Assembly: GCA_003233345.1 (NCBI GenBank) | Contig: QILK01000233.1 | Location: 1 to 41,133, forward strand | Origin: Gammaproteobacteria bacterium | GTDB lineage: Bacteria > Pseudomonadota > Gammaproteobacteria > SZUA-21 | DNA: 41,133 nt | Direction of reading: 5' to 3' | Shown here: positions 9,501 through 34,626 of the stretch, piece by piece | Numbering within the stretch: position 1 is the stretch's first letter | Layout: each line of letters opens with the position of its first letter | Notes under the pieces: model-generated | What the model saw: the letters and a program-made list of their open reading frames with translations, nothing else | Database searches by the model: none | Told to the model about the DNA's origin: nothing | Made by a program: the position numbers and the translations under genes

Positions 9501-9656
9501 GTAGCCCGGACTTCGCGCAGCGAACGCCGGGGGAAAGAAATATAGTTCGAAATTCAATTAAAATAGGCGTATGCGCAAGGCGGTCGGTCGCTAACTAAGA
9601 CACGGAAGAATAGGATGTTCGTTCTCCCGGCGTTCGCTACGCGAAGTCCGGGCTAC
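9501..9656. repeat. REP-paired element, copy 2
   Basis: A plus-strand REP unit at 9501-9532 (GTAG head, CCGGGG end, inner TTCGC/GCGAA) faces an inverted unit at 9625-9656, which carries one base change near its inner end. The 92-nt interior is only loosely similar to copies 1 and 3: the shared GAACGAACAT-like start and TTTTAATTGAATTT-like block are seen on the minus strand. It sits in the gap between the hydrolase-TlpA gene and the terminator of the lipid-transport operon. Confidence 0.78.
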
Positions 9657-9795
9657 TCGAAAAATGATAGCATTTTTCGGGGTCAGTTTTTTGGCTAACG
9701 ATGTCAATTTAATAGACTCAATTCACGGCAAATCCGCTTTGGCAGGTACTAACTGGATAGTCTATGTCGATTATCGACTGTGGTTTGAGCTAGGC

Positions 9796-9825
9796 AAAAA
9801 AAAACCCTGCCGGTGGGCGGCAGGG
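9796..9825 (-). terminator. Rho-independent terminator of the partner-switch/MCE operon
   Basis: CCCTGCCG (9805-9812) and CGGCAGGG (9818-9825) form a perfect 8-bp GC-rich stem with a 5-nt loop. On the minus strand the stem is followed by nine T residues (9796-9804). This is the right place and direction to end the minus-strand operon whose last gene stops at 10040. Confidence 0.88.
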
Positions 9826-10039: not shown

Positions 10040-10555
10040 CTAACCCAGTGTATCTGAGTGAATTATTTTTGGGTGGCCATGAATTTTTTGTGGATTAAAT
10101 TTTCGAATAACCCTTGCTTCGTTGACTAGTTGAGCCAGGGTTGCCGGGGGGAAGGGTTGCTTGTGTAGCGGTAAATACGACAAAACAGTGTGGCGTTTTA
10201 ATATGCGAAAATAGCCTGCATTAGTCAGATAAGGCGAGGTCAACTGCAATCCGGTTTGTAATTGTGATAACGCACCTGATATTTTCCTGCTCATCAATAA
10301 CTGACCATAGACCAAGCTTAACAATGCATAATGTTTTGCATCTTTTTCCGTTTTTAAGAGTAATTCCAACTCGTGGGTTAAGCCGCCTTTAGTAGAGAAT
10401 CGAACAACAACTTCAGCAAGATTTATATAAAATAAATTCTGATTGCTTAAAACCGCCTGCCGATGTTCTGATGTTATTTGTTCTAGAAGTTGATTGGCTT
10501 GTGTTTGAGTTAGTGGGTCAGCATGCCAGTCGGCCATATCAAATTTTATGAGCAC
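10040..10555 (-). CDS. Conserved-looking protein of unknown function at the end of the MCE operon
   Basis: The 171-aa protein has no recognisable domain. No signal peptide or membrane segment is visible. The middle (about residues 45-125) is rich in short amphipathic helices (ALLSLVYGQLLMSRKISGAL), reminiscent of a TPR-like helical repeat, which is only an impression. It overlaps the end of the lipoprotein gene by 10 bp, so it is probably translationally coupled as the last gene of the operon, just before the terminator at 9796-9825. It is not an MlaC, which would be exported and larger. It might be a cytoplasmic accessory factor of the transporter. Confidence 0.7.
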   Translation of the reverse strand: MLIKFDMADWHADPLTQTQANQLLEQITSEHRQAVLSNQNLFYINLAEVVVRFSTKGGLTHELELLLKTEKDAKHYALLSLVYGQLLMSRKISGALSQLQTGLQLTSPYLTNAGYFRILKRHTVLSYLPLHKQPFPPATLAQLVNEARVIRKFNPQKIHGHPKIIHSDTLG

Positions 10556-11235
10556 TGGCTAATATTTTCCACTTCGCTCGCCAACTTGATAATTTTGGTA
10601 GCTTTTGGCTTATTATCTTTGATAAACAAGACTAATATTTTTCTAACAGCCTCATCGAAAGCAATAACAGTCTTTTGAAAATCTCCGCGACCGTGCTTTA
10701 AACGAATATCATAGCGTTTTCGAGCAATGACTGTTTTTCCATTGTTTTTGGAAATATCCAATTCTAATGACACCAAGACTTCATCTTTTGCTGCACCGGA
10801 TTCATACACCAGACGTTCAAATTTTACTATGCGCCCTCTTAATATATAATCTACTTCACGGGAAGCATTATAACGAACAACCTTGGTCGCAAAGTTTGCC
10901 TGGCCCAGATAATTATAAATACGTTGTTGAACCAGTTCAGTTGGCGGTGCTGACCAGTAATGATAATGGTGCTTAATGATCTCTAGTGGCGTTTTAGCAT
11001 AGGACAATAGTATGTGCGTATCATTACGCAAGGCATTGGCATCAAGACGATCAATGCCCAGCACACCCTTTAAAACAGGCGTGTTAAGCTTAAAGGCCGG
11101 AGGCGTCTCCGGCAAATTATAATAGCGGTCAGTGGTTTTTTCCCGCTGATCGCGGGTCTCTGAAGACCCAATACAGCCATTTAAACCGATTGATATACCC
11201 ACAACAATAATTAATTTTGTCAAGTTAGTCTTCAT
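10546..11235 (-). CDS. PqiC-like ABC-transport auxiliary lipoprotein
   Basis: This 229-aa lipoprotein has a signal sequence ending in the lipobox LNGC (around residue 21). The mature part resembles the ABC-type transport auxiliary lipoprotein family (PqiC/YmbA; PF03886), with a YYNLPETPP opening followed by LKGVLGIDRLDA and a long alpha/beta domain (RYNASREVDYILRGRIVKFE). In PqiABC-type systems such a lipoprotein sits in the outer membrane and caps the MCE tube. It is encoded 1 bp from the MCE gene (shared base 11235), which fits that role. The family assignment is by overall pattern and position, so moderate. Confidence 0.78.
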   Translation of the reverse strand: MKTNLTKLIIVVGISIGLNGCIGSSETRDQREKTTDRYYNLPETPPAFKLNTPVLKGVLGIDRLDANALRNDTHILLSYAKTPLEIIKHHYHYWSAPPTELVQQRIYNYLGQANFATKVVRYNASREVDYILRGRIVKFERLVYESGAAKDEVLVSLELDISKNNGKTVIARKRYDIRLKHGRGDFQKTVIAFDEAVRKILVLFIKDNKPKATKIIKLASEVENISQCS

Positions 11236-12182
11236 TACCGTTTATATACACCACGCTCTTTGGGCGACTTTCCACCTATGAGTAGTCCTGGATTCTGCCG
11301 TATTTTATGACTGAATTCATTAAAATTCCTAGTTGTCTGCTCAATATTATACACGATGGAATTGATTCGGCTGGAAATCGTTTCCAGTGATTTTCGCATA
11401 GAAATAACCGATTGCTTGATGCCTCTTTTGTTTTCAGTGACTAATTCATCCATTTTTTTCATCAAACTGGCCAATTTTCCACTAAATTGCTTTAGATCGG
11501 AAGAAGCGGTATTGATGTTTCCTAATAGTTCTTTAACGCTCGCCTGATTATCCTTTCCCAAAAAGACCTTCATGTCTTCAACACCTTGATTCAAATTTAA
11601 TATCAATTTATTAGTGTTTTCTGCCAGCATAGGAATTTGTACCGACAATCCGTCGCCAATTTTATCAATTTGCTTGTTTAAGTTTTCCAGTAACGGTCGT
11701 ATCTTTTCGTTCGAAACTAATTTAACTTCCTTGGCCACATCGTTCATCATGGTCATAAAACTGGTTTCACTTTGACCTTCTTGCAAATATTCAGAATTCG
11801 CTTTGAGGTTGGTCTTGCTTTTGACCTCTTTGATATCTATTTGTTGCTCGGCAAGCATATTAGGGGCAACGATTTGCGGTATGCTTTTACTGGGAATCAC
11901 CCAGCCTTTTTTTATTTCGGCACGTATACGGAACCGGGTTTCTTTATTCGGATAAATAGGATCAATTGCCTTGACGGTACCAATTCGGTAACCACCGTAA
12001 GTGATTTTTGTTCCCACCTTTATACCGGTTATATTCTTGAAGACAAAATAATACTGGTCTGTATCTTCCTGGTCTGCTGCTAAAGAATATAAAATAAACA
12101 GCAAAAAGAGTCCAACCGAAGAAACAAATATTCCCACGACTAGATAATTAACATTTTCACGTCTCATAACATAACCAACCAC
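11235..12182 (-). CDS. MCE-domain (MlaD-like) lipid transport protein
   Basis: The 315-aa protein is anchored by one N-terminal membrane helix (VNYLVVGIFVSSVGLFLLFI) and carries a single MCE domain at about residues 38-125 (FVFKNITGIKVGTKITYGGYRIGTV). A long helical, partly coiled-coil tail covers about residues 130-300. E. coli MlaD is only 183 aa, so the long tail is more like PqiB or mycobacterial Mce proteins, where helices form a tube across the periplasm. It would bind and conduct phospholipids between membranes. Two nearby Met codons (1 and 6) could be the start. It is in one operon with the permease, ATPase and auxiliary lipoprotein. Confidence 0.93.
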   Translation of the reverse strand: MVGYVMRRENVNYLVVGIFVSSVGLFLLFILYSLAADQEDTDQYYFVFKNITGIKVGTKITYGGYRIGTVKAIDPIYPNKETRFRIRAEIKKGWVIPSKSIPQIVAPNMLAEQQIDIKEVKSKTNLKANSEYLQEGQSETSFMTMMNDVAKEVKLVSNEKIRPLLENLNKQIDKIGDGLSVQIPMLAENTNKLILNLNQGVEDMKVFLGKDNQASVKELLGNINTASSDLKQFSGKLASLMKKMDELVTENKRGIKQSVISMRKSLETISSRINSIVYNIEQTTRNFNEFSHKIRQNPGLLIGGKSPKERGVYKR

Positions 12183-12248
12183 ATTGTGACTTTTTGATTC
12201 CGCATACCCCGTAGTTTGCCACAGGGTAATTGATTTATGTACCTCAAC

Positions 12249-13085
12249 CTAGTAACCGAAAGCATCAGGATCGTCATCTTTTTCTCCCAGCAAGCGTCGC
12301 AAATAAGCCTCTGGGTCAATCTCTTCCTGACGTGGTCGTCGATTTAACAGATCCTGAATTCTTTTGTTTGTGGACTGCTTAACTTCGTCAACCGTACCCG
12401 TCATCAGTATCTCGCCCTGATCCAGAATAGTAATTCTGTCAGCAATTTTAAATGCACTTTCCAATTCATGGGTGACCACAACAATCGTCATACCCATATC
12501 AGCCCGCATGTTTAAAATCAGATCATCCAATTCTGCAGCGACCACCGGATCCAGACCTGCCGATGGTTCATCAAAAAACAACAGCTTTGGATCCATGACA
12601 ATCGCCCGCGCCAATGCCGCCCTTTTTATCATACCACCGGATAGTTCTGATGGCATCAAATCCTCAAAATTGGCCAAGTTAACAACTTCAAGTTTCATCC
12701 TGGCCATAATACGCATGGTATTTTCGTCTAATTTGGTATGCTCTTTTAATGGCATACACACATTTTCTCCAACCGTCAAAGACCGGAGTAATGCACCACT
12801 TTGAAATGAAACACCCATATCCTTACGTAAATCATACATCTCAATCTCTGACAATGTGGTTATATCCCGACCCAGTATTTCAATCGTTCCTGAGGTCGGC
12901 GGGTTTAAGCCGAGTATATATCGCATTAACGTACTTTTACCGGATCCACTGCCACCCATAATCACCATGATTTCTTCAGGCACGATATCGAGACTGACAT
13001 TATTCAATATCTGCTTTTTGCCATAGTGGGTGACCAGATTTTTGACGCTGACCGCCGGACCCGTGTGACTTCCACGACTGCTCAT
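12249..13085 (-). CDS. mlaF: MlaF-like ABC transporter ATP-binding protein
   Basis: This 278-aa ABC ATPase energises lipid transport with the MlaE-like permease at the inner membrane. Walker A is GGSGSGKST (residues 44-52), the signature is LSGGM, Walker B is LLFFDEPSAGLDP and the switch His is in VVTHEL. The LSGGMIKRAALARAI block and the DLILNMRADMGMTIVVVTHELESAF block are typical of MlaF/Ttg2A. A short C-terminal extension (LLNRRPRQEEIDPEAYLRR) resembles the MlaF tail that reaches the neighbouring subunit. The start overlaps the permease stop by 4 bp (13082-13085), a sign of translational coupling. Confidence 0.95.
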   Translation of the reverse strand: MSSRGSHTGPAVSVKNLVTHYGKKQILNNVSLDIVPEEIMVIMGGSGSGKSTLMRYILGLNPPTSGTIEILGRDITTLSEIEMYDLRKDMGVSFQSGALLRSLTVGENVCMPLKEHTKLDENTMRIMARMKLEVVNLANFEDLMPSELSGGMIKRAALARAIVMDPKLLFFDEPSAGLDPVVAAELDDLILNMRADMGMTIVVVTHELESAFKIADRITILDQGEILMTGTVDEVKQSTNKRIQDLLNRRPRQEEIDPEAYLRRLLGEKDDDPDAFGY

Positions 13086-13936
13086 GTCAGCGTACCGATA
13101 TTTAAAAAATAGGTGAAAATCATATCAGCGACAACGATACAACTGATCGAAAGTACGACCGATCTTGTTGTTGAGCGACCAACACCCTCGGCACCACTAC
13201 CAACCTGGAAACCGTTACTGACACCGACCAGTGCAATGATAATAGCAAATACCGATGCCTTAATTAGCCCCTGATGAATATCATCAGGTTTTAGCGCTTC
13301 GAATGTACGCTGTATATAAACATCCAGCGGCATATCAATTTCAGTACCAGTGAATAGAGCACTACCCATTATCCCCATAAAATCACCGACGATGGTCAGC
13401 AACGGCACAGAAATCATCATCCCCACTAACACCGGTGCGGCCAGATGGCGTACCGGGTTAATACCGATTACTCGCAGCGCATCCAGTTCCTGCGATTCAT
13501 TCATGGTACCAATGCGCGCGGTAATGGCTGAGCCAGAACGTCCGGCAACCAAAATACCAACGATTAGCGGCGCAAACTCCCGAGTAACCGATTGTGCCAC
13601 CAGGTCGACTACCCATAATTCCTGCCCAAACTGTTTTAAAGTAGCGATCCCCTGAATAGACAACATAACACCAACGGCCAAACACAACACCGAAACGATC
13701 AGTAAGGCATTGACACCAATTTCACGCACTTCCTTAAAAACCGCAGCGACACGTACAGGTTGCTTGCGCCTGAATCCGGTTAGCACCCAATAGACGCATT
13801 CAACAAACAACACCATCACATAGCCTAACTCTTCGATACCAGCAGCAAAACGTTTGCCAATATTTTCTAAAAATATTGCACTGCGTTGTATTATGTTGCC
13901 TGAAAGTTTTTCTTTAGCTGCCATTAAGGTACTCAT
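13082..13936 (-). CDS. mlaE: MlaE-like ABC transporter permease
   Basis: This 284-aa polytopic membrane protein of the MlaE/YrbE family (PF02405) forms the inner-membrane core of MCE lipid transporters. Family signatures include FGQELWVVDLVAQSVTREFA, ILVAGRSGSAITARIGTMN with the elbow-like MNESQELDALRVIGINP, and four to five hydrophobic segments. An N-terminal extension of about 20 residues makes it a little longer than E. coli MlaE (260 aa). The ATG at 13936 lies inside the STAS gene, an overlap of 23 bp; a second Met 12 nt later would overlap by 11 bp. Either way it is coupled to the STAS gene. Confidence 0.95.
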   Translation of the reverse strand: MSTLMAAKEKLSGNIIQRSAIFLENIGKRFAAGIEELGYVMVLFVECVYWVLTGFRRKQPVRVAAVFKEVREIGVNALLIVSVLCLAVGVMLSIQGIATLKQFGQELWVVDLVAQSVTREFAPLIVGILVAGRSGSAITARIGTMNESQELDALRVIGINPVRHLAAPVLVGMMISVPLLTIVGDFMGIMGSALFTGTEIDMPLDVYIQRTFEALKPDDIHQGLIKASVFAIIIALVGVSNGFQVGSGAEGVGRSTTRSVVLSISCIVVADMIFTYFLNIGTLT

Positions 13937-14246
13937 TGATAGACAAATACATTGGGAAGATCTGGTCGAGGTGGGCCAATTTCAATACCCTGACAGCGGC
14001 GTCACTTGAATTAAGCAAACAGAAGTCAAGCCCATTCGTTCTGGCCAGCTTATACCCTTCTACCAGACTAGCTACGCCGGAACTATCAATATATTCAACC
14101 TGTGACAGATCAACGAGCACATTGTGCTTTTTACCTAAAAATTTTAATATCTGTTTGCGTGCAGCGGGTGAAAAGTGCAAGTCCACTTCACCTTTTAAGG
14201 TGATAATTGTATATTTCTCTTCAGTTGTTACTTCATATTCCATCAC
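13914..14246 (-). CDS. STAS-domain protein (anti-anti-sigma / MlaB-like)
   Basis: The 110-aa single STAS domain resembles SpoIIAA/RsbV and also MlaB, the STAS subunit that binds MlaF in E. coli. The key block is VEYIDSSGVASLVEGYK. Ser55 in DSSG matches the residue phosphorylated by the SpoIIAB/RsbW kinases (SpoIIAA Ser58). MlaB proteins lie in Mla operons but are not known to be phosphorylated. Here the gene overlaps the kinase gene upstream (4 bp) and the MlaE gene downstream (23 bp), so it physically joins the regulatory and transport halves of the operon. Its target could be the ATPase, a sigma factor or both. Confidence 0.9.
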   Translation of the reverse strand: MMEYEVTTEEKYTIITLKGEVDLHFSPAARKQILKFLGKKHNVLVDLSQVEYIDSSGVASLVEGYKLARTNGLDFCLLNSSDAAVRVLKLAHLDQIFPMYLSINEYLNGS

Positions 14247-14689
14247 ACACCTTCCCGATGAGGTAGCTTTTTACTCATTTCAACAATGTTACCCTTTTTA
14301 TCAGGTCTTTCGATATACTCGACCGTATCCATTACTTGCTGCATTAAATGTACACCTAAACCACCTGGGCGAATATCCGACAAATCGCGTGATTTGATTA
14401 AACTTCTATCACAAGGTGGCGCAGAATCTGTCAACCTAAAAACCAGGCGATCCGATCTATCCAATACTTCCAGAATGACTTCGCCAACACATTCTTGGCC
14501 ATAGGCATGCTGAATAATATTCATACAGGCTTCATTAACGGCGAGAACCATGCCCTCTACATCTTGAGTAGTATAGCCATACATACCCGCCACTGAACAG
14601 ATAACGGCTCTGATTAATTTCAACCGATCTGAGCACGATGGAAACCGAAGCTCTATGACTTTGGTATCAATATTCATTGTTGTCCACAA
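14243..14689 (-). CDS. RsbW/SpoIIAB-like ATP-binding anti-sigma kinase
   Basis: This 148-aa GHKL-fold protein shows an N-box AVNEACMNIIQHAY (Glu53, Asn57) and a G2 box PGGLGVHLMQQVMD. The G1 region LTDSAPPCD is degenerate compared with the usual DxGxG, although the ATP-contacting Asp is present. Proteins of this kind bind and phosphorylate STAS antagonists and may sequester a partner, classically a sigma factor. The gene overlaps its upstream phosphatase gene by 16 bp and the downstream STAS gene by 4 bp, which forms a complete partner-switching set. No sigma-factor gene is present in the window, so the sequestered partner is unknown. Confidence 0.88.
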   Translation of the reverse strand: MWTTMNIDTKVIELRFPSCSDRLKLIRAVICSVAGMYGYTTQDVEGMVLAVNEACMNIIQHAYGQECVGEVILEVLDRSDRLVFRLTDSAPPCDRSLIKSRDLSDIRPGGLGVHLMQQVMDTVEYIERPDKKGNIVEMSKKLPHREGV

Positions 14690-16377
14690 TCCATCAATAT
14701 AAACGTAATATCATCGTCGACGACTAATTCCTTACCTGCTAAAACGGCATTAAGGATCGCATCCAAGCGATTTTCAGCGCTTATCGTATGTTTGTCAGCG
14801 ATAATCCTTTTTAACTTTTCCAGACCCAGCATCGTGCCATCTTCCAACTTGTATTCGGATATGCCATCGGTAAACGCGTACAACGACATTCCATCTAATT
14901 TAAAGCTAAATTGCTTGAATTTCCAGTCAGAAACGATGCCTAATGGCAACGCCTGCGCCGGTAGTTCAATTATTTTACTGTTGTTAACCAAAAATGCGGG
15001 TAAATGTCCGGCATTAATGATATCAACCCGATCTGATTCCGGATCATAGACCCCAGCCACCATAGTGACAAACATGCCGCGAACCGCGTTTTCACATATC
15101 TCGCTGTTAAGAATAGTCATTAGCTTGGCAAGCGAATCAACCTGTTTTGCCATACAATGAAACAGGCTACATGTTTTTGCCATCAATAACGCCGCTGTAA
15201 TGCCTTTTCCAGACACATCGGCAATATTAAAAAACACTTTTCCATTAGCAACCCGGAAAAAATCGTAAAAATCTCCGGATAACGTTTTAGCTGGAATATT
15301 AAACCCGTATACCGGTACCGATACCGATACCCTGTCAGCTTGCGGCAACAAACTTTGCTGAACCTCTTGGGCAATGGTCATCTCCTGGTTTAATTTTTCT
15401 GCGTATCGATTACGGTCTTCCAGTGCCTTGTTAAGCTCCCAGGTTAATTGCTGATATGTCTGGTTTTCGTCAGCAAGGGTCACCTGGCATTGTCGCAATA
15501 CTTCTTCATAATCAACTTCCGATTTAACGCGCAACCCCAGTGCCTGACCCGCAACTTCGACTTCATTGGGTAAATTTTCCAGGACGTCATTAACAACATC
15601 TTGTTGCAAACCCAGATTTTCTTTGGCCAACCGCCGGGTATTTTCCAGTACTAATTTTTTATCGTCTGCAGTATACACAGCGGTTATCCAGTCAGCACAT
15701 TCTAGGAGTTGGCAAATTTTGATAATTTCCGGTTCAATTTCATCCATTGCGTGGTAATGATGATGCCCCAGCGGGATACTCAGCTCCTTTGGAAGTTTCC
15801 AGGAATCCGCCAATATTCTGTTAACTTCATCATGCGTTTGACCGAAGTGCAGCTTTTCCATTTCAATGCGTTTTAGTGGATCAGCCACACGAAGTTCTTG
15901 CCAATGTTTGCCCTTGTCTTGGTAATAGTGCAGTAGTACAAGTAAACCAAAATCCTGCAATAAACCTGCGGTAAAGCACTGGTCGGGATCAACCTTGCAT
16001 AGCGGTGCCAGCATTTTTGCCGCCACCGCTCTCCTTAATGCATCTTCCCAATAAGCAGTCGTATCCAAACCTTCGATGCGCTTTTTACCCAGCATGTTTT
16101 TGACCGAGACACATAACACCAGATTCCGAAGTGCATCAAAACCAACGATAACCAGCGCGTGTTTGATACTGGAAATTTCTTTTGCCAATCCATAAAAAGG
16201 TGAATTGACGATTCGAATCAACTCTGCGGATAATACCGGGTGAGTATTAATAATCTGGCCTAGCTGGTTTGGTTTCACTCCCGGTTTTGAGCAGAGATCC
16301 ATTATATCCAGCGCCGCTTTGGGTGGAGAGGGTAAATCTGCTAATCTGATTGTGGAAATTGCTCGCTCAGCTGTCAT
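14674..16377 (-). CDS. HDOD-domain PP2C (SpoIIE/RsbU-type) phosphatase
   Basis: This 567-aa soluble signalling protein combines an N-terminal HDOD domain (about residues 12-205, with NSPFYG and SIKHALVIVGFDALRN) with a PP2C-type phosphatase domain (about 345-565). A coiled-coil linker (about 295-345) ending in the EVQQSLLP motif typical of RsbU-like enzymes joins them. Metal-binding aspartates are visible at Asp369 (SGDFYDF), Asp387 (ADVSGKG) and in the terminal VDDDITFI. It should dephosphorylate the STAS protein encoded two genes on. The HDOD part may sense a signal or second messenger. It heads the minus-strand operon. Confidence 0.92.
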   Translation of the reverse strand: MTAERAISTIRLADLPSPPKAALDIMDLCSKPGVKPNQLGQIINTHPVLSAELIRIVNSPFYGLAKEISSIKHALVIVGFDALRNLVLCVSVKNMLGKKRIEGLDTTAYWEDALRRAVAAKMLAPLCKVDPDQCFTAGLLQDFGLLVLLHYYQDKGKHWQELRVADPLKRIEMEKLHFGQTHDEVNRILADSWKLPKELSIPLGHHHYHAMDEIEPEIIKICQLLECADWITAVYTADDKKLVLENTRRLAKENLGLQQDVVNDVLENLPNEVEVAGQALGLRVKSEVDYEEVLRQCQVTLADENQTYQQLTWELNKALEDRNRYAEKLNQEMTIAQEVQQSLLPQADRVSVSVPVYGFNIPAKTLSGDFYDFFRVANGKVFFNIADVSGKGITAALLMAKTCSLFHCMAKQVDSLAKLMTILNSEICENAVRGMFVTMVAGVYDPESDRVDIINAGHLPAFLVNNSKIIELPAQALPLGIVSDWKFKQFSFKLDGMSLYAFTDGISEYKLEDGTMLGLEKLKRIIADKHTISAENRLDAILNAVLAGKELVVDDDITFILMDCGQQ

Positions 16378-21413: not shown

Positions 21414-24400
21414 ATGGGAGTTAGAATTGTGAAGACCAACACGCGGCTGCTTTTACCAATATTTCTGATCCTTGGGTTTTCCGTTGCATTGATAGCCTGG
21501 GCACTGATAAAAATCGCCCTTGCACCATCAGATGATAACAAGAACCAACAGGTAACCGTTACACCCAATAATTTTTCCGTCGAAGTCATCAAAATATCGG
21601 AACAGACTTTTGATGATAAACCAACACTGGCCATTCTTTTCTCAACCCCACTTGATCCCAAAATTCGCTATGATAATTTTATAGAAACGTATCATGTCAA
21701 AAAGGGATTGCATAACAAACTGAATGGAAGCTGGGTGTTAAGCGATAACCGCCGCGTATTGTATTTTCCCCATATAAAGGCACAAACACATTATTACATC
21801 AAAGTGCTACAGGGTTTGCCTGCCAGCAATGGCAAAAAAAGCAAACTCAATACCGCGAAAACAATCAAAACCAAGAAAGTCACTGCCATCGCCAGTTTTG
21901 CCAGCCGTGGTAATATTTTACCGGCGCGTTTAAACGGTGGGCTTCCCATTGTTACGGTGAATACACCTGAAGTCGATATCCAGTTTTTACGTGTCAAGCC
22001 TAATAATACCAGTAAATTTCTATCGCAATTTTCATCATCAAAAAACTTTAATGAGTGGCAACTCGATCAGATGAAGAATGTTGCTGATAGTGTTTACCAA
22101 AATCGGTTTGTCACCCGCGCGCAAAAAAATAAACGAACCATCACCCATATCCCGGTAAAAAATATTAAAGAATTATCCAAACCGGGAATGTATATCGCAG
22201 TAATGACTATCCCTGGAAAATTTGATTATTACAAATTTAAAACATCACTATTCCTGGTGACCGATATTGGTTTGCACGCCCGGGTATATAAAGAAAATTT
22301 TACCGTGTATGCCTCCTCCCTGGCCACCGGTGCATCCATCAGCAATTTAAAATTACAAATGATCGATAAAAAGGGCAAGCAACTGGAAGAAGTCACCAGT
22401 GATGCCGACGGTGTTGCTACCTTTTCCTCCAAACCTGCTGAACAGGGTGCGATAATCGCAATAAGAGGCAAAGAATTCTCGTTATTATCATTTAAAGACC
22501 CGGCGCTTGATCTGTCAGAATTTAATGTAAAAGGTTCCGAGCAAAACCCAACCGAGGCGTTTGTTTACAGCAATCGCGACTTGTTTCGTCCCGGTGACCG
22601 TGCCGATTTTTCGGTGGTATTACGCGATTACGACGGCCACAGCGTCAAGGCACAACCGTTAAAAATAAAAGTAAAACGCCCCGACGGCCGAGTGATACGT
22701 AATTTGACACTGAAACCCGGCGATAAGGACAAGCTTGGCTATTATTATTATCGATTTAATATTCCTGGAAATGCACAAACCGGCAAATGGTCGTTGGAAG
22801 TCATTACCGATCCGGCATTAAAAAAACCGGCTTCAATACACAAGTTTAACGTCGAAGAGTTTCTTCCCGAACGTATGAAGCTCGACCTGGCGTCCGCAAA
22901 AAAATATTTGACCTTATCCGAATTGTTTGTCATACAAACCACCGGTGCTTATCTCTACGGTGCACCGGCAGCGGGCAACCGGGTTAAAGCTGTTTTGAAT
23001 CGCTATATGGAAAAACACCCGGTCAAAAAATATAAGGACTACTTTTTTGGCGATATCGCCGATGAAAAAAACCGCGAGCGCGATGAAATAACCGACGATA
23101 AGCTCGATAAACGCGGTCAATTTACCATAACGGTCGCGGCGCCCAAGGGCAAAACAAAATCGCAAAACTCGGCCATGACCGTCAGAGTCACGACCAGCAT
23201 CTTTGAGTCCGGTGGTCGCCCGGTAACCCGGTCAATCAAACGTGTTGTCTGGCCAGCAAAAACGCTTATCGGTGTCAGACCGCTGTTCACTGGTAAAAAT
23301 GCCAGCGACAATTCCAATGTTGAATTTGAAGTGATCAAGGTTAATCCCGAGGGACGTCGGCTCGCGGCTTCCAACCTTGAAGTCAAACTTATCCGTGAAG
23401 ACCGGAATTATCACTGGGAACATACCGATCAACGCGGTTGGCACTATGAGTTCACCCAGGATGAGTATCCGGTTGTTGTGCAAAACCTGAATATTAACGC
23501 CAATAATAAAGCTAAAGTTTCAGTCCCCGTCGAATGGGGAAGTTACCGTCTTGAAATCACTGACCCGGACACACAACGTAAATTAAGTCACCGTTTTTCT
23601 GCCGGTTATGGCTGGGAGCAAAAACAGCAATCAGCAAACGCACGACCAGACATGATTAATATCACCCTGGACTATAAAGGTGGCGATACGGCTGACGTTA
23701 AACTGGTACCGCCCAAAGCAGGCAAAGGTATTCTTTTTATTGAATCTGACAAGCTACTCTATACCCAGCGAATCGATTTGCCGGCAAAAGGTAAAACTTT
23801 CAAATTAAAAATTCCAAACGAATGGAAGGCGCGGCACGACATTTATATAAGTGCTATTGTCTTTAGACCGGGTGCAAATAAAAATCATATCACCCCCAAT
23901 CGCTCTGTCGGCACTGTCCACTTGCCCTTTGCTCGTGATGATCGCAAGCTTAGTATCAGCATGGACCTACCAGAGAAAATGCAGCCCGACCGACCGCTAA
24001 AAGTAAAAATCAAAATAGCTAACCTCAAAAATAAAAAGGCAATGGTAACGGTCTCCGCTGTCGATATGGGTATTTTAAATATTACTGACTATAAGACACC
24101 CGATCCGTTTAAATATTTTTTCGCGAAAAGACGTTACGGTGTACAACAATATGACCTATATGGCAAAGTAATCGAAAACCTTAAAGGCGTCGAAGGTAAA
24201 CTTCGTTTTGGTGGCGATGGCGTTGCAAACAAGCAAAACAAGCGCCCGGATGCAAAAGTAAAAACCGTTGCCCTGTTTAGTGGGGCGGTCATGCTCGATA
24301 AGCACGGCGAAGCCACCGTCGAACTAAAAGTACCTGACTATAATGGCAGTTTGCGGGTCATGGCCGTCGCATTTACCAATGATAAATATGGGTCCAGCGA

Positions 24401-26327
24401 ACGAGAAATCATAGTCGCTGCCCCTATCATTGCAGAAATATCAATGCCCCGATTTATCAGCCCGGGAGACAAGTCCAGACTAACGCTGGATTTACATAAT
24501 CTAAGCGGCAAAACCCAAACTATATCCGTCGATGTTAGCGCCAGTTTTCCGCTCAAGATGGAGAAAAGCGAGCAAAAAATAACACTGACCGACAAGGAAA
24601 AGAAAATATTAACGTTTGATTTACACGGCGGCGAGGATTTCGGCGTCGGAAAAATCCAGGTTAATGTCAACGGTAGTGGTATTAAACTAGAACGACAATG
24701 GGAGTTAGGTGTCCGTCCCGCTTACCCTGGTGTCCGACGTGTGGTCAACAAGGTTATTCAACCGGGAGAAGATCTGGTTATCGACAAAGAGCAACTGGAA
24801 AACCTGATGTCTTCAACCGTCGATGGAACGCTGGTTGTTTCCACCACACCACCATTAAACATTCGCGGTGCCGTTAAAGGCTTGTTGTCTTACCCTTATG
24901 GCTGCCTGGAGCAAACCACGAGCAAAGCGTTTCCGCTGGTCTATATTAACAAGCAAAAAGCCCTGCAATATGGTTTAAAAGCATTTAGCGACAAGCAAAG
25001 AGCGGAAATGATTGCCAAGAGTATTAATCGCATTCGCTCTATGCAGCGATCCAGCGGTGGATTTGGTCTTTGGAATAACCGCAGTCCAGAAGAACCCTGG
25101 TTAACACCCTATGTCACTCATTTTTTACTCGAAGCCAAAGACAACGGGTTCTCCGTACCCGCCGACATGTTGCAATCGGCTCTTAAGAATTTGGAAAAAC
25201 GCATTTCCACCCGGCGAATTAATCTTGCTCGCCATTTTCACACAGAGAAGATAAGACATCTTGCCTTTGCCTCTAATGCTTATGCGGGCTATGCGCTGGC
25301 GAGAGTTCAACGTGCACCACTGGGAACGCTCAGAACACTATTCAAACTTCATCATAAAGAATCGGAATCGGGTCTGCCATTGATACACCTTGGGCTGGCG
25401 CTTAAGCTACAGGGGGATACAGCGCTTGGAATGAAGTCGATCAAACTGGGCTTAAAAAAAACGCGTGAGTCCAAACGTTATTTAGGCGACTATGGTTCAC
25501 CCGCACGTGATATGGCCATGAGCTATGCCCTGCTCGCCAAACATGGCATTAAAGATCCGGGCGCCGATAAGCTGGTCTTCAGTCTGGGTAAAAAAATCCA
25601 GAGCAGCAATTACCTAAGCACGCAAGAACAACTGGCTATTTTCCTGGCCGGAAATGCGCTCAGCAAGAATAAGGGCAAGCAATGGAATGCGACGTTAGTC
25701 AAGGGAGACAAATCCACTGCGCTTGATTATAGCGGTCGAATGGTAAAGCGGTTTGACTTTAAAGATATCAATAACGGGTTACAGCTAAAATCGACAACGC
25801 AGGAGCCTTTATATGCGATGTTTGTTACCACTGGCTATCCAAAAAAAGCGCCAAAACTGCAAAATAAATATATCGATGTGGTTCGAACCCTTTATGATAT
25901 GCAAGGTAAAAAAATCGAACGCAAGCAATATAGGGTTGGTGAGTTATTCATAGCTCATCTATCCGTTCGCGGTGACAAGCGGACCGATAATGCCTTGGTC
26001 GTCGATTTGCTACCCGCAGGATTTGAGATTGAAAATCTGAATATCAGTAAGGGTGAAAATTTCGAAAATATTAAAATTAATGGCAAGCACCCGAAAACCG
26101 TTATGAATAATGCTTATATTCTACATCAGGAATATCGCGATGATCGCTTTGCCGCCGCCATTAAAATACACCGACATCGCTCGGTCGATCTCTTTTATCT
26201 AGTACGCGTGGTCTCACCCGGTATCTATAAGGTACCGCCGACACTGGTGGAAGATATGTATAGTCCGGAATGGCGTGGCATTGGCAGCCCCAGTGAGGAT
26301 ATCACTGTCGTCAACAAAGCATTATAA
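21414..26327 (+). CDS. yfhM: Bacterial alpha-2-macroglobulin (YfhM-type)
   Basis: This 1637-aa periplasmic protease trap resembles eukaryotic alpha-2-macroglobulin. An N-terminal membrane segment (LLLPIFLILGFSVALIAWAL) has no lipobox Cys, so the protein is probably anchored by a helix rather than by lipid as in E. coli YfhM. MG-type beta domains follow, including an MG2-like block (FVYSNRDLFRPGDRADF). The thioester motif CLEQ is Cys1164-Gln1167 in YPYGCLEQTTS, inside the thioester domain. A C-terminal receptor-binding-like domain ends the protein. It would trap incoming proteases after cell-wall damage. pbpC begins 2 nt later, the conserved pairing with PBP1C, which repairs peptidoglycan. Confidence 0.95.
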   Translation: MGVRIVKTNTRLLLPIFLILGFSVALIAWALIKIALAPSDDNKNQQVTVTPNNFSVEVIKISEQTFDDKPTLAILFSTPLDPKIRYDNFIETYHVKKGLHNKLNGSWVLSDNRRVLYFPHIKAQTHYYIKVLQGLPASNGKKSKLNTAKTIKTKKVTAIASFASRGNILPARLNGGLPIVTVNTPEVDIQFLRVKPNNTSKFLSQFSSSKNFNEWQLDQMKNVADSVYQNRFVTRAQKNKRTITHIPVKNIKELSKPGMYIAVMTIPGKFDYYKFKTSLFLVTDIGLHARVYKENFTVYASSLATGASISNLKLQMIDKKGKQLEEVTSDADGVATFSSKPAEQGAIIAIRGKEFSLLSFKDPALDLSEFNVKGSEQNPTEAFVYSNRDLFRPGDRADFSVVLRDYDGHSVKAQPLKIKVKRPDGRVIRNLTLKPGDKDKLGYYYYRFNIPGNAQTGKWSLEVITDPALKKPASIHKFNVEEFLPERMKLDLASAKKYLTLSELFVIQTTGAYLYGAPAAGNRVKAVLNRYMEKHPVKKYKDYFFGDIADEKNRERDEITDDKLDKRGQFTITVAAPKGKTKSQNSAMTVRVTTSIFESGGRPVTRSIKRVVWPAKTLIGVRPLFTGKNASDNSNVEFEVIKVNPEGRRLAASNLEVKLIREDRNYHWEHTDQRGWHYEFTQDEYPVVVQNLNINANNKAKVSVPVEWGSYRLEITDPDTQRKLSHRFSAGYGWEQKQQSANARPDMINITLDYKGGDTADVKLVPPKAGKGILFIESDKLLYTQRIDLPAKGKTFKLKIPNEWKARHDIYISAIVFRPGANKNHITPNRSVGTVHLPFARDDRKLSISMDLPEKMQPDRPLKVKIKIANLKNKKAMVTVSAVDMGILNITDYKTPDPFKYFFAKRRYGVQQYDLYGKVIENLKGVEGKLRFGGDGVANKQNKRPDAKVKTVALFSGAVMLDKHGEATVELKVPDYNGSLRVMAVAFTNDKYGSSEREIIVAAPIIAEISMPRFISPGDKSRLTLDLHNLSGKTQTISVDVSASFPLKMEKSEQKITLTDKEKKILTFDLHGGEDFGVGKIQVNVNGSGIKLERQWELGVRPAYPGVRRVVNKVIQPGEDLVIDKEQLENLMSSTVDGTLVVSTTPPLNIRGAVKGLLSYPYGCLEQTTSKAFPLVYINKQKALQYGLKAFSDKQRAEMIAKSINRIRSMQRSSGGFGLWNNRSPEEPWLTPYVTHFLLEAKDNGFSVPADMLQSALKNLEKRISTRRINLARHFHTEKIRHLAFASNAYAGYALARVQRAPLGTLRTLFKLHHKESESGLPLIHLGLALKLQGDTALGMKSIKLGLKKTRESKRYLGDYGSPARDMAMSYALLAKHGIKDPGADKLVFSLGKKIQSSNYLSTQEQLAIFLAGNALSKNKGKQWNATLVKGDKSTALDYSGRMVKRFDFKDINNGLQLKSTTQEPLYAMFVTTGYPKKAPKLQNKYIDVVRTLYDMQGKKIERKQYRVGELFIAHLSVRGDKRTDNALVVDLLPAGFEIENLNISKGENFENIKINGKHPKTVMNNAYILHQEYRDDRFAAAIKIHRHRSVDLFYLVRVVSPGIYKVPPTLVEDMYSPEWRGIGSPSEDITVVNKAL

Positions 26328-26329
26328 AG

Positions 26330-28711
26330 ATGTCCGCAAACGCCACTAAGAAACCCTTGTGGAAACGGCTATTCAGGTTTTTTCTATATACACCTGTAGC
26401 ACTCTTAATGGCGTTTGCACTATTTATCGCGCTCGATTATTTCTTCCCGCTACCCATTGAACAGACCCGGAACAAGCAACAACAAAGCGCGATAGTTGTT
26501 GCCAGTGATGGTGAGCCCTTGCGCGCATTTGCAAGTGATAAAGGGGTATGGCGTTATCCAATCAATATCGACGATGTTTCACCGCTTTATTTTGAAACAT
26601 TACTCTCTTATGAAGACCGCTGGTTTTACCAGCACCCGGGCATTAATCCCTATGCACTGCTGCGCGCCATGTGGCAACGAATCAGTAACGGCAAGGTTAT
26701 CTCAGGAGGATCAACGCTGACGATGCAAGTTGCCCGCATCATTGACCCGCATTCAAGAAGTATCAGCGGGAAAATAAAACAGATGTTTCGGGCAACGCAG
26801 TTGGAATGGCATTATTCCAAAAAAGAAATACTGACGTTTTATATTAATCTGGCACCGTTTGGTGGCGCGATCGAAGGCGTTGAAGCAGCCAGTCGCGCGT
26901 ATTTAGGAAAATCGGCCAAAGAATTAACGCGTGCCGAGGCGGCCCTACTCACGGTATTACCCCAAGCCCCGACCCGCTTTCGACCTGACCGGCAATCAGC
27001 GCGCGCGGAAAACGCTCGAAACAAAGTGATCAACCGAATGGTTAGCTTTAAAATATGGACACCGGAACAAGCCAAACAGGCAAAAATTGAAAAAGTGATG
27101 CGACGCCATTACCGGCAACCCATGCTAGCCCCGCTCTTTGCCCGACGCATGAAAAAACGCGCAAGAAAAACCGGTATTGTAAAAACCACGCTTGATTCTT
27201 CCTTGCAAATTACCCTCGAAGATAAAATCAAGGATTATGTGACCCGATTTCCGGCTCGAACTTCAGCGGCAGTGCTGGTAGTGGATAACAAATCGCTGGA
27301 AGTCCGCGCCTATGTCGGCTCGGCAGACTTTGTCAATAACGCACGTTTTGGCCATATTGATATGGTACAAGCATCACGCTCACCCGGTTCTACATTGAAA
27401 CCATTTCTATATGGTCTGGCTATCGAAGACGGGCTATTACATTCGGCCAGCCTGCTCTCCGACGCGCCAATCGAATATGATGGCTATCGTCCCAGTAACT
27501 TTAGCCGCGGATTTCGCGGACCTGTCAGTATGAGCCAAGCGCTACAATTATCACTTAACCTGCCGGCTGTACAAACGATGTATCATTATACGCCACAAAA
27601 ATTTATGGCCCGAGTACGCAATGGTGGGCTTAAGTTAACGATTCCTAACCATGGAAAACCAAATCTCGCGGTTATTCTTGGGGGGACTGGTACCAGTCTG
27701 GAATCGCTGGTATCAGCCTATACTGCATTTGGACGTCAGGGCTTAAGCGGTCGACTGCGATTCCAGCCATCAGATCCGCTGGTGGAACGGCGTATGCTTG
27801 ATTCCGGTGCAGCCTGGATTATCCGCAATATCCTCGAAGCCAATAGCCGGCCCGGCGTACCCCAGGATTATTTAAGCTGGTCCAATTCCAGGCTCGTGGC
27901 ATGGAAGACCGGCACCAGTTACGGTTTTCGTGATGCTTGGGCAATTGGTGTGACGGATCAATATACCATTGGTGTCTGGGTGGGGCGTCCTGATAGTACA
28001 CCCGTACCCGGCCACTATGGTGCAGTGACCGCAGCACCAATATTATTTGATATCGTTGATTCACTCCCCACTAGAGATCTGATCGCCAACAATAACGCCA
28101 GACCGTCTAAAGTCAAACGCGTAAAAATATGCTGGCCACTGGGCAGTCAGTACAATGAGAAAAATAAAGACTTGTGCCATGAACGTCGTAGCGCCTGGAT
28201 ACTAAGCAATACCATTCCCGGTACACTTCCCGATATTGGCGTTAAAGCATGGGAAAGTCGCATCGTTAAATATTGGGTCAACGCGGCCACAAACAAACTT
28301 GTCACAGCCGAATGCGGGGTTGCCAAGCGGGTACCACGCACACTCGCCCGCTGGCCCTACGCGCTGGAACCGTGGCTTCCACCTTCGACCTTAGCAGTTT
28401 CAAAATTACCAAAAACCGATAAAGGTTGTCCACAACATTCTGTCAACATGCTTGGCCATTTAAAAATCACTGGCCTGGCCGCACAAACAGTTGTGCGAAA
28501 ATCGGGGCCCAATGCTGACCATCCTTTGATACATCTGGCGGCACTTGGTGGCAAGGGAAGACTATTTTGGCTTATTAATGGCAATCTAAAAGCCCGGACA
28601 AAACCCAGCCAGCATTTTAACTACCAGTTCAAGAAACCAGGCCTATATAAAATCACCGTCATGGATAATAAAGGCCAATATGATAGCGTTGAAATCAAGG
28701 TCATTCAGTAA
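26330..28711 (+). CDS. pbpC: Penicillin-binding protein 1C
   Basis: This is a bifunctional class A PBP of 793 aa, anchored by a membrane helix at about residues 17-38. The glycosyltransferase domain (GT51) has the catalytic Glu95 in SYEDRWFYQHPG and the block SGGSTLTMQVAR. The transpeptidase domain shows the motifs Ser354-TLK (SPGSTLKP), SLN (LSLNLPAV) and Lys526-TG (WKTGTSYG). A BiPBP_C domain forms the last 90 or so residues. The start at 26330 is 2 nt after the alpha-2-macroglobulin stop, so the two are translationally linked. It synthesises peptidoglycan in the periplasm, probably at damage sites. Confidence 0.96.
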   Translation: MSANATKKPLWKRLFRFFLYTPVALLMAFALFIALDYFFPLPIEQTRNKQQQSAIVVASDGEPLRAFASDKGVWRYPINIDDVSPLYFETLLSYEDRWFYQHPGINPYALLRAMWQRISNGKVISGGSTLTMQVARIIDPHSRSISGKIKQMFRATQLEWHYSKKEILTFYINLAPFGGAIEGVEAASRAYLGKSAKELTRAEAALLTVLPQAPTRFRPDRQSARAENARNKVINRMVSFKIWTPEQAKQAKIEKVMRRHYRQPMLAPLFARRMKKRARKTGIVKTTLDSSLQITLEDKIKDYVTRFPARTSAAVLVVDNKSLEVRAYVGSADFVNNARFGHIDMVQASRSPGSTLKPFLYGLAIEDGLLHSASLLSDAPIEYDGYRPSNFSRGFRGPVSMSQALQLSLNLPAVQTMYHYTPQKFMARVRNGGLKLTIPNHGKPNLAVILGGTGTSLESLVSAYTAFGRQGLSGRLRFQPSDPLVERRMLDSGAAWIIRNILEANSRPGVPQDYLSWSNSRLVAWKTGTSYGFRDAWAIGVTDQYTIGVWVGRPDSTPVPGHYGAVTAAPILFDIVDSLPTRDLIANNNARPSKVKRVKICWPLGSQYNEKNKDLCHERRSAWILSNTIPGTLPDIGVKAWESRIVKYWVNAATNKLVTAECGVAKRVPRTLARWPYALEPWLPPSTLAVSKLPKTDKGCPQHSVNMLGHLKITGLAAQTVVRKSGPNADHPLIHLAALGGKGRLFWLINGNLKARTKPSQHFNYQFKKPGLYKITVMDNKGQYDSVEIKVIQ

Positions 28712-32175: not shown

Positions 32176-34626
32176 TTATATAGATAATTTAATACGGGAA
32201 TTTTTTAACGACGGTTTTAATTGCGATTTTTTTTCTATGGCGGCAGCCAAAGGTCGGTATTGCAAGCCATAAAACATTTGCAGGTAACGGTCCATCTCTA
32301 TTTTTTCCAGGCCAGTCATTGCTTTCCAGAACCCATAGGTGTGCGAAAGGGTCATTAGTCTTTCTGCATATTGCCCCCAGGTATAATTCTTGGCCACTCT
32401 ATCGATCGCTTCAGTGGAAATATTATTCCAGTATTTTGGATCTTGATCACAAGTTTTAAAAAACCTTTCTATTATCTGACCACAAATAAATCCGTTATGC
32501 GGATCAATATGAAAACCTGATATTCCATCGACAACGATTTCTGAGGGCCCGCCATACTCAGTAGCAAACGTGGGCAACCCACAAGCCATTGCCTCGATCA
32601 CGGTTAAACCGAAAGCTTCAAAAATTGCCGGTTGAACAAAGACCCCCTTCATATCAGCCACATAGCGATAGAGTTCACCGACCATATTTTTATCTAGTCG
32701 GCGACCGATCCAGCGCATAGAGCTATCGAGCTGAAAATGATCCATCAACTTTTGTATCTTTTTAATTTCGTCGTGTTCCTCCCTGTCCGTGTTTACCGAT
32801 CCATGTACATGGCCTGCGATCACCAGTAAGTTGGCTTTTTCCTGTAATTTTTTGTTGTTACCATACCACTCAACCAGCCCAGCGATGTTCTTGATGCCGT
32901 CCAGCCTGGATATCGTAAAAATAATACGCTTGTTACAATCCAAAAAACAGCCTCGGGAAGTCTTATCTGCTTCGCCAAAGATTAAAGAAGTAATTTCATT
33001 TTCAAGCCCTTGCAAACGTTTCTTTTTATCATAAAAAGGGAAATATATATCAGCGTTAATGCCAGGAGAAACGATATTAAATTTAGGATCATGTAAATTC
33101 ACACCATTGATTACTCGATACAAACCCGGCAGTGTATAGCTCTGATAAGACTCGTACTGGCCCACACTGTCATCTCTACCGGCTATTTCCTGGTAACTAC
33201 TCGCAATAATTAAATCTGCCGCATTCATCGAAATGAGGTCTGCGGTATACTGGCAAGCAAAATGATACTTTTCATCGTGCTGCTTCCAATAGAGATCCGA
33301 ATAGCTGTATTTGGCTTTTTCAAGTGCGTGAGCGATATTACACTGTGTCACATTAAGATTCTCTGATAAAATTGTAGCCACCAGGTTTCCGTCTGAGTAA
33401 TTACCAATAATTAAATCCGGGCGGCCTTCTAACGCAATCAGAATTTCTTTTTGCGCATCCATGGCAAACTTCTCTAAGTATGGCCAGATTTCAAAGCGGG
33501 ATACCCAATGCGGAATCACCTCTCCTTCGCAGTTATAAAACGGCACTCTTAGTATTTTGGTATGCTTTGTTCCAATCACTTTTTCATGTTGCTGATTACA
33601 AGTTGTGTGCTGCGCCTCAGGAATCAAACGGGTAACGATAAGAATTTTGGGTTCAATGTCAATCCCTTGTGCGCGGATTTTTTTGCGCATTTCATTTTCG
33701 ATCGCTCGCACCTGATCCAGAATATAAACCAGTTGTCCGCCGGTATCTGGCATTCCCAACACATTAGACTGTCCAAAAAACCCATGTGGCGACACAATAA
33801 CAATATTGAATATCATTGGCAGCTGGCTAATAAATTTTTCCAAATTACTTGCGTTGGGCGCCTCCAGTAAATCCGTTAGCAAACGGAAATTTTCGCGAAT
33901 CTGTGCAACGGTGGCACCCCACCCTGGCTCCAAACCAAACGCCTGTAACTGAAAAGCCACTTGTTTCCAGGCTAAACCCTGCTCCTGTTGGGATAAATAC
34001 TCTTCAGAGAATTTTAAGCCAGTCCGTAACGCATCTAAATCCTTCACTCTTTCATTGAGCATAAGCGGCTTGCCCTGAACCTGGTGGTCGCGTAAAAACG
34101 CCAATAGCTTCTGGTTTCCCAAACTTATGTTTTCATAGAGGCTGCTGGAAAGCGCCTTATTTAGAAACTTCACCCCGTGGCCTATCGAGCCAATGTCCTG
34201 AAGTTTAGGAGACGCTGGCTTAAAGGCGGAAAAATCGACCTCGAGCAGCCATGGCGAACTTTCGCCATTAACATTAACAATATGCTCCTTAAACTTTAAG
34301 TATGCCCTTAAATTAATTTCCTCATGCTCCATGCTTTCAACATGGAACCGCAAATAGTTCCAGGTCGTTCGTCGCGGACGCGTTGCCAAATAAATCCAGG
34401 GCGATTCTATGACCGCTTCCTGGGCGATATTAATTGTATTTGCCAAACTGGATTTGCTGACAGATTCCGAATTAGCACTGCTATTACAGTACTCTGTAAA
34501 TACGTTTTGAATATCCGATCTTGTCAAAAAGGACTTATTTAAAGCCAGATATTTGTGGAGTAAAGGATAAACTGATTCACGATTACTTTTAATATATTCG
34601 TATAGTGATCCCATTTCTGTCATCAA
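32176..34626 (-). CDS. Sucrose synthase
   Basis: This GT4-family enzyme reversibly converts sucrose and a nucleoside diphosphate into fructose and NDP-glucose. The 816-aa length matches plant and bacterial sucrose synthases. Recognised blocks include the N-terminal regulatory region, IVIVSPHGFFGQSNVLGMPD, VTRLIPEAQHTTCNQ, GNYSDGNLVATILS, the region IAHALEKAKYSYSDLYW, and the C-terminal EAFGLTVIEAMACGLPTFAT with the E-x7-E motif. There is no phosphatase, sucrose-phosphate synthase or fructokinase next to it, unlike in many bacteria with this enzyme. It is monocistronic, ended by a hairpin at 31837-31876, and preceded by a long gene-free region. Confidence 0.95.
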   Translation of the reverse strand: MMTEMGSLYEYIKSNRESVYPLLHKYLALNKSFLTRSDIQNVFTEYCNSSANSESVSKSSLANTINIAQEAVIESPWIYLATRPRRTTWNYLRFHVESMEHEEINLRAYLKFKEHIVNVNGESSPWLLEVDFSAFKPASPKLQDIGSIGHGVKFLNKALSSSLYENISLGNQKLLAFLRDHQVQGKPLMLNERVKDLDALRTGLKFSEEYLSQQEQGLAWKQVAFQLQAFGLEPGWGATVAQIRENFRLLTDLLEAPNASNLEKFISQLPMIFNIVIVSPHGFFGQSNVLGMPDTGGQLVYILDQVRAIENEMRKKIRAQGIDIEPKILIVTRLIPEAQHTTCNQQHEKVIGTKHTKILRVPFYNCEGEVIPHWVSRFEIWPYLEKFAMDAQKEILIALEGRPDLIIGNYSDGNLVATILSENLNVTQCNIAHALEKAKYSYSDLYWKQHDEKYHFACQYTADLISMNAADLIIASSYQEIAGRDDSVGQYESYQSYTLPGLYRVINGVNLHDPKFNIVSPGINADIYFPFYDKKKRLQGLENEITSLIFGEADKTSRGCFLDCNKRIIFTISRLDGIKNIAGLVEWYGNNKKLQEKANLLVIAGHVHGSVNTDREEHDEIKKIQKLMDHFQLDSSMRWIGRRLDKNMVGELYRYVADMKGVFVQPAIFEAFGLTVIEAMACGLPTFATEYGGPSEIVVDGISGFHIDPHNGFICGQIIERFFKTCDQDPKYWNNISTEAIDRVAKNYTWGQYAERLMTLSHTYGFWKAMTGLEKIEMDRYLQMFYGLQYRPLAAAIEKKSQLKPSLKNSRIKLSI

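Follow-up and report, generated by a model that had tools for sequence, protein, structure and literature searches.

A putative partner switch encoded with an Mla-type lipid transporter in Gammaproteobacteria

Why should the genes of a partner switch, a system in which a STAS protein changes partners according to its phosphorylation, lie in one run with those of a lipid transporter? The question is raised by the contig QILK01000233.1 of a gammaproteobacterial draft genome (SZUA-21; assembly GCA_003233345.1), of which we analyzed positions 1 to 41,133 on the forward strand (41,133 nucleotides, hereafter the window). Here, genes for an HDOD-PP2C phosphatase, an RsbW-type kinase and a STAS protein precede those for MlaE, MlaF, an MCE protein and a PqiC-type lipoprotein. 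An earlier note on this DNA regarded the STAS protein as an equivalent of MlaB, the STAS subunit of Escherichia coli MlaFEDB, with its binding to MlaF controlled by phosphorylation. The analyses described below, which compare sequences across genomes, support that reading: the STAS protein is probably both the MlaB-like subunit of the transporter and the output of the switch. Loci and genomes are cited by our survey numbers (L and G, respectively).

Conservation of the switch genes beside Mla genes

We searched 369 genomes of the class with five MlaE sequences as queries and regarded the matches above 290 bits as members of the MlaE subfamily found in the window; five matches near 210 bits represented another type. 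The subfamily was present in 45 genomes, and kinase and STAS genes adjoined MlaE in 42 of the 45, which belong to 26 families, as judged by reading the individual loci (in one of the 42, G094, the locus is split over two contigs). The gene-order search proposed in the earlier note thus recovered an order that is not restricted to a single strain, and it extends to two genomes of another class of the phylum, in which kinase and STAS genes were also found beside MlaE (L128 and L129). In two further genomes of that class, G447 and G407, MlaE was present and no kinase or STAS gene was found adjoining it, the MlaE gene of G407 being located at the start of a contig. The same order across 26 families is far beyond chance, and we rejected a local accident or an artefact as its explanation. 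At 22 canonical mlaFEDCB or STAS-fused-type Mla loci, neither the kinase nor PP2C was detected (0/22). A search of plasmids yielded distant MlaE relatives only (<60% identity).

Among 43 loci, the PP2C gene is immediately upstream and co-oriented in 38; among the remainder, the HDOD-PP2C gene is divergent in L089 and the contig ends in L129. Twenty of these 38 phosphatases have HDOD as their N-terminal sensor, and all four of the non-HDOD proteins tested carry GAF instead. PP2C and the kinase are fused into a single polypeptide in 11 loci. That the sensor varies while the core stays constant is what would be expected of a signalling module.

A search of 229 genomes of the class detected 61 strong RsbW-type kinases, of which 35, by our own count, adjoin MlaE or MlaF. 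In a tree of 76 kinase sequences, a single clade with an SH-like approximate likelihood-ratio test (SH-aLRT) value of 97 contained all of the 51 Mla-linked kinases together with four others, two of which (L199 and L205) are cut by contig ends. Members of this clade are therefore Mla-linked in 51 of the 53 cases with a readable context, while all of the kinases outside it (21/21) lack Mla linkage; Fisher's exact test for clade membership against Mla linkage gave 2e-16, a statistic that ignores the relatedness of the sequences.

Signatures of the STAS protein and the identity of its transporter partner

The catalytic parts of the switch appear intact throughout. The acidic, metal-binding motifs of PP2C (D369, D387, D504, D555 and D556) were found in 38/38 homologues, and the N-box (E53/N57), D88 and the G-box (GGLG, 109-112) of the kinase in 43/43. 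The DSSG motif of the STAS protein comprises residues 54-57, with Ser55 as the predicted phospho-acceptor. Ser55 was conserved in 43/43 sequences, and G19, D22, R30, the run Y52-I53-D54-S55-S56-G57, A59, L61, V62 and E63 are invariant in the same set.

Helix alpha-2 is the centre of the MlaB-MlaF interface, and we compared it between the switch STAS proteins, 11 MlaB sequences and 18 control STAS sequences (16 encoded near RsbW-type kinases without Mla genes, plus TM1442 and RsbV). Ala59 is present in 54/54 switch STAS proteins and 10/11 MlaB sequences but 0/18 controls, which mostly have Arg at this position, and Glu63 in 54/54, 7/11 and 0/18, respectively. On the other hand, D22 and Y52 of the switch STAS proteins are control-like and unlike MlaB. 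The earlier note had named the lack of an MlaF-binding surface as a finding that would speak against it; as far as sequence can tell, alpha-2 retains the MlaB-like Ala59 and Glu63 that the STAS proteins linked to RsbW elsewhere lack. Ser55, the first Ser of DSSG, presumably aligns with Thr52 of MlaB and Ser58 of SpoIIAA. The correspondence between MlaB Thr52 and the SpoIIAA serine has been described (PMC5016091). The spacing of S55, A59, E63 and Q66 (a lysine in the window) would place these residues on one face of alpha-2. Altogether, the switch STAS looks like an RsbV-like protein with an MlaB-like alpha-2, the combination expected of a protein that binds both the kinase and MlaF.

Which subunit of the transporter the STAS protein would contact can be approached through a second transporter type found beside the same kinase/STAS clade (L196, L202, L209, L210 and L214). 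Its MlaE differs from that of the window and its MCE protein is short, while the type in the window is MlaE-MlaF-MCE-PqiC. The MlaE sequences of the two switch-bearing types formed two subfamilies with a support value of 95 each, whereas the MlaF sequences of both types fell on one side of a branch with a support value of 82 and a length of 0.60. As MlaF is unified while MlaE splits in two, the switch follows MlaF, the subunit bound by MlaB in E. coli, and this points to MlaF as the partner of the switch STAS. In L194 and L198, the STAS gene is followed directly by MlaF. The MlaF sequences carry the signature ELSGGM, and the C-terminal handshake (Y-x3-L) is conserved at Tyr261 (45/46) and Leu265 (46/46), matching Tyr261/Leu265 of E. 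coli. In L072, a locus without the switch, 10 conserved positions are altered in MlaF and 2 in MlaE, which is suggestive; no such pattern is seen in L102 and L127.

In three loci (L066, L067 and L068), the switch module is followed directly by another MlaE together with a short MCE protein, and the annotated stretch contains no second MlaF. One ATPase may serve two permeases in these loci.

Layout of the operon and its genomic surroundings

The order of eight minus-strand genes followed by a terminator, described previously from the letters alone, was borne out by an open reading frame (ORF) check, Pfam and reading of the hairpin: eight co-oriented ORFs run from 16377 to 10040 with the positions and domains as first described (Table 1). 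Most of the gene junctions are overlaps of a few bases, of the ATGA/GTGA type, and the only real intergenic gap, of 66 bases, separates the MCE gene from MlaF. The terminator-like hairpin is located approximately 215 bases past the last stop codon. Comparison with homologues favours an ATG at 14677 as the kinase start and an ATG near 12167 as the MCE start over the starts of the longest ORFs. The 567-residue HDOD-PP2C protein is predicted to be both the sensor and the phosphatase for the STAS protein. The best specific NCBIfam match of the ATPase is the MlaF model, at a score under the curated cut-off. The 171-residue protein matched no Pfam or NCBIfam family; among the loci searched, its homologues occur in L022 and L221 only, and we rejected this ORF, present at three loci, as a member of the conserved core.

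Table 1. Features of the window and their positions (aa, amino acids).
Feature	Position	Strand	Evidence
HDOD-PP2C (SpoIIE-type) phosphatase, 567 aa	14674..16377	-	Pfam HDOD 15-207 (1.5e-51), SpoIIE/PP2C 378-563 (9e-40)
RsbW/SpoIIAB-type serine kinase, 148 aa as longest ORF	14243..14689	-	HATPase_c_2 7e-25, RsbW models
STAS protein, 110 aa, RsbV-like with MlaB-like alpha-2	13914..14246	-	Pfam STAS 3e-19
MlaE permease, 284 aa, without fused STAS domain	13082..13936	-	Pfam MlaE 2.5e-68
MlaF ATPase, 278 aa, C-terminal extension Y261...L265 L266	12249..13085	-	Pfam ABC_tran 6.6e-32
MCE (MlaD-type) protein, 315 aa, single MCE domain and long C-terminal part	11235..12182	-	Pfam MlaD 5.5e-12
PqiC/YmbA-type lipoprotein (ABC_trans_aux), 229 aa	10546..11235	-	Pfam ABC_trans_aux 1.5e-8
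Unknown protein, 171 aa	10040..10555	-	no family assigned
Intrinsic terminator-like hairpin, 8 pairs, then T9	9805..9825	-	sequence reading
Inverted repeat of about 34 bases, arms about 90 bases apart, GCCCGGACTTCGCG...CGAACGCCGGG	9502-9535 and 9624-9658		read by eye
Alpha-2-macroglobulin gene (bacterial), then PBP1C-type penicillin-binding protein gene	21414-28711		Pfam
Sucrose synthase gene	32176-34626		Pfam SUS domains

The draft assembly of the source genome is fragmented into 274 contigs (3.9 Mb, about 91% complete). MlaE and the MCE protein each gave a single match genome-wide, both located in the switch operon, so that this operon encodes the only Mla-type transporter detected in the genome. 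No RsbW-type match in the genome is strong other than the operon kinase (88 bits). The two that rank after it above the cut-off score 37 and 32 bits and lie in longer ORFs, and the operon kinase is the only match above the cut-off with an ORF of single-domain size.

An orphan gene for a canonical MlaB-like STAS protein was found at the murA locus in all three genomes of the family (L134:4711-5010, G000:C23; L153:3883-4227; L154:1624-1998), the copies in L153 and L154 being 54-63% identical to that of the source genome (L134). In L134 and L154, where the contig continues, it adjoins ibaG/bolA and murA. At this locus mlaFED has been lost and the MlaB-like gene retained in the three genomes. Each of them has only one MlaE, which belongs to the switched operon, and on this basis we speculate that the switched MlaF may use the orphan MlaB as an unregulated alternative subunit.

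Elsewhere in the window, the inverted repeat that lies downstream of the operon appears to be a small element of the kind of a miniature inverted-repeat transposable element (MITE) or a repetitive extragenic palindromic (REP) element. The alpha-2-macroglobulin and PBP1C genes form a known pairing, and a sucrose synthase gene is also present.

Proposed mechanism, competing explanations and significance

In E. coli, MlaB Thr52 lies near the centre of the interface with MlaF; the T52E exchange reduces binding to MlaF, and T52A abolishes ATPase activity; the two papers concerned raise MlaB phosphorylation as a possibility, name no kinase and leave the regulation open (PMC7367683, PMC5016091). We propose that the operon encodes a lipid ATP-binding cassette (ABC) transporter that is off when its MlaB-equivalent subunit is phosphorylated and on when it is dephosphorylated. 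The RsbW-type kinase would phosphorylate Ser55 of the STAS protein, and the phosphorylated form would be unable to hold MlaF in an active complex, because Ser55 corresponds to MlaB Thr52, a residue central to the MlaF-binding face; transport would cease. A signal received by the HDOD domain of the phosphatase, or by GAF in other genomes, would let PP2C remove the phosphate. The dephosphorylated STAS protein would then dock on MlaF and its C-terminal handshake and keep MlaF on MlaE, with ATP hydrolysed and transport resumed. The kinase and MlaF would thus compete for one face of the STAS protein. The phosphorylation of Ser55 by the kinase, the control of MlaF binding, the polarity and the signal are inferred.

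Several observations weigh against this proposal. The MlaE subfamily is present without a local switch in three genomes with a readable context (G067 and G301, of one genus, and G084), and in G084 the switch is found at another MlaE locus (L210). The nearest match of the STAS protein in a profile search is TM1442, an anti-sigma antagonist (74 bits), MlaB being weak (25 bits); the score against the curated NCBIfam model mlaB_1 is 24.7 bits, under the cut-off of 90, and a single-sequence model of the protein folded alone (predicted local distance difference test score, pLDDT, 74) best matched RsbV of the RsbV/RsbW complex, with MlaB at rank 19. The MlaF tail is also retained in L102 and L127, both without an adjacent STAS gene, and the MlaF grouping comes from a quick tree in which the branch support is moderate. 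As T52A of E. coli MlaB keeps binding and loses ATPase activity (PMC7367683), control of binding alone may be too simple. In L221 (G044:C2:6500-13000), a fused HDOD-PP2C-RsbW, the STAS protein and an unknown protein of the 171-residue type remain, and the MlaE, MlaF, MCE and PqiC genes are gone; a radical SAM/DUF3641 gene upstream identifies it as the same locus as the switch operon elsewhere, so that in G044 an alternative output, or a different MlaF, has to be taken into account. In L215 (G120:C3:217500-224000), no Mla gene accompanies a trio of the switch clade in the 6.5 kb that were read. It is on account of L221 and L215 that we go no further than regarding the proposal as quite probable. 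The L215 trio is located beside divergent PP2C and FHA-domain genes.

The main competing explanation is that the trio controls a sigma factor encoded elsewhere, such as RpoS, as HsbR-HsbA and CrsR-CrsA do, and is only co-transcribed with the transporter. The trios of P. aeruginosa and Shewanella act on RpoS and FlgM (PMC6482189), the source genome encodes RpoS (named from its sequence and an NlpD-like neighbouring gene), and the persistence of the switch without transporter genes in G044 fits this explanation as well. The earlier note had taken the lack of a nearby sigma factor as favouring the transporter. Pfam detected no sigma factor among the eight operon genes, so that this much stands, but sigma factors including RpoS are present elsewhere in the genome. 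The argument is the weakest of those in the note and is better replaced by the ties of the kinase clade to Mla loci and the co-travelling of the switch with MlaF. A kinase clade that is almost always Mla-linked, a switch tracking one MlaF subfamily across two permease types, the alpha-2 residues shared with MlaB and absent from control STAS proteins, and an operon without any conserved sigma or anti-sigma gene together leave control of a distant sigma factor unlikely. We regard as quite unlikely a dual output, in which the STAS protein switches MlaF while the kinase released from it ties up a sigma factor, so that lipid traffic and a stress regulon are coupled. Anti-sigma activity is common among RsbW-type kinases, HsbA acts on two targets (PMC6482189) and RpoS is available, but no conserved sigma gene is nearby and the second target is speculative. 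Finally, the STAS protein might be a constitutive structural MlaB subunit, with the kinase vestigial or acting on something else, given that E. coli MlaB is needed for stable MlaFEDB and that its phosphorylation there is without experimental evidence (PMC7367683). The invariance of Ser55 and of the catalytic residues of the kinase and phosphatase over 26 families, the PP2C-kinase fusions, and the ordinary Mla loci that manage without either enzyme render this very improbable.

In broader terms, we consider it fairly likely that the phosphatase, kinase and STAS protein form a dedicated, family-wide serine-phosphorylation switch with an ABC transporter rather than transcription as its output, in which the STAS protein alternates between the kinase and MlaF, the HDOD and GAF sensors are exchangeable, and a single switched MlaF may, in some genomes, work with two different permease/MCE pairs. 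The module resembles RsbU/RsbW/RsbV and SpoIIE/SpoIIAB/SpoIIAA in that PP2C, an RsbW-type kinase and a DSSG-bearing STAS protein with a predicted fold nearest RsbV are encoded together, but a lipid ABC transporter takes the place of the sigma factor in the operon and alpha-2 is MlaB-like. MlaE, MlaF with its handshake, the MCE protein and a separate STAS protein, in which Ser55 takes the place of Thr52, are shared with E. coli MlaFEDB; unlike the latter, the STAS protein is RsbV-like (110 versus 97 amino acids), a PqiC-type lipoprotein, a kinase and a phosphatase are encoded, and there is no MlaC gene. HsbR-HsbA of Pseudomonas, CrsR-CrsA of Shewanella and SypE-SypA of Vibrio are likewise kinase/phosphatase-STAS switches of Gammaproteobacteria, and some of them act on something other than a cognate sigma factor, but the outputs known or suspected for them are RpoS, FlgM or the control of biofilms, whereas the proposed target here is a transporter in the same operon. 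In the STAS-MlaE fusion permeases of this transporter family, the STAS domain forms the N-terminal part of MlaE, the position of the free STAS gene here; no kinase or phosphatase was found at the 15 loci of this kind that were examined, in most of which MlaE has an N-terminal extension the size of a STAS domain, and their C-terminal MlaF tail is of another type. No earlier account of partner switching at an Mla operon came to light in the literature searched, which mostly did not cover subscription journals. The parts are of known kinds, and the transporter output is, as far as could be checked, new.

How MlaB activity is regulated in the cell is an acknowledged open question (PMC7367683, PMC5016091), and it becomes directly testable with a candidate kinase and phosphatase that are encoded next to the transporter and retained across 26 families. 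If the proposal is correct, partner switching would extend to the gating of ABC transporters, and the lipid balance of the outer membrane would be under fast post-translational control. The recurrence of the arrangement suggests that lipid traffic between the two cell membranes is switched on and off by phosphorylating the regulatory subunit of the pump.

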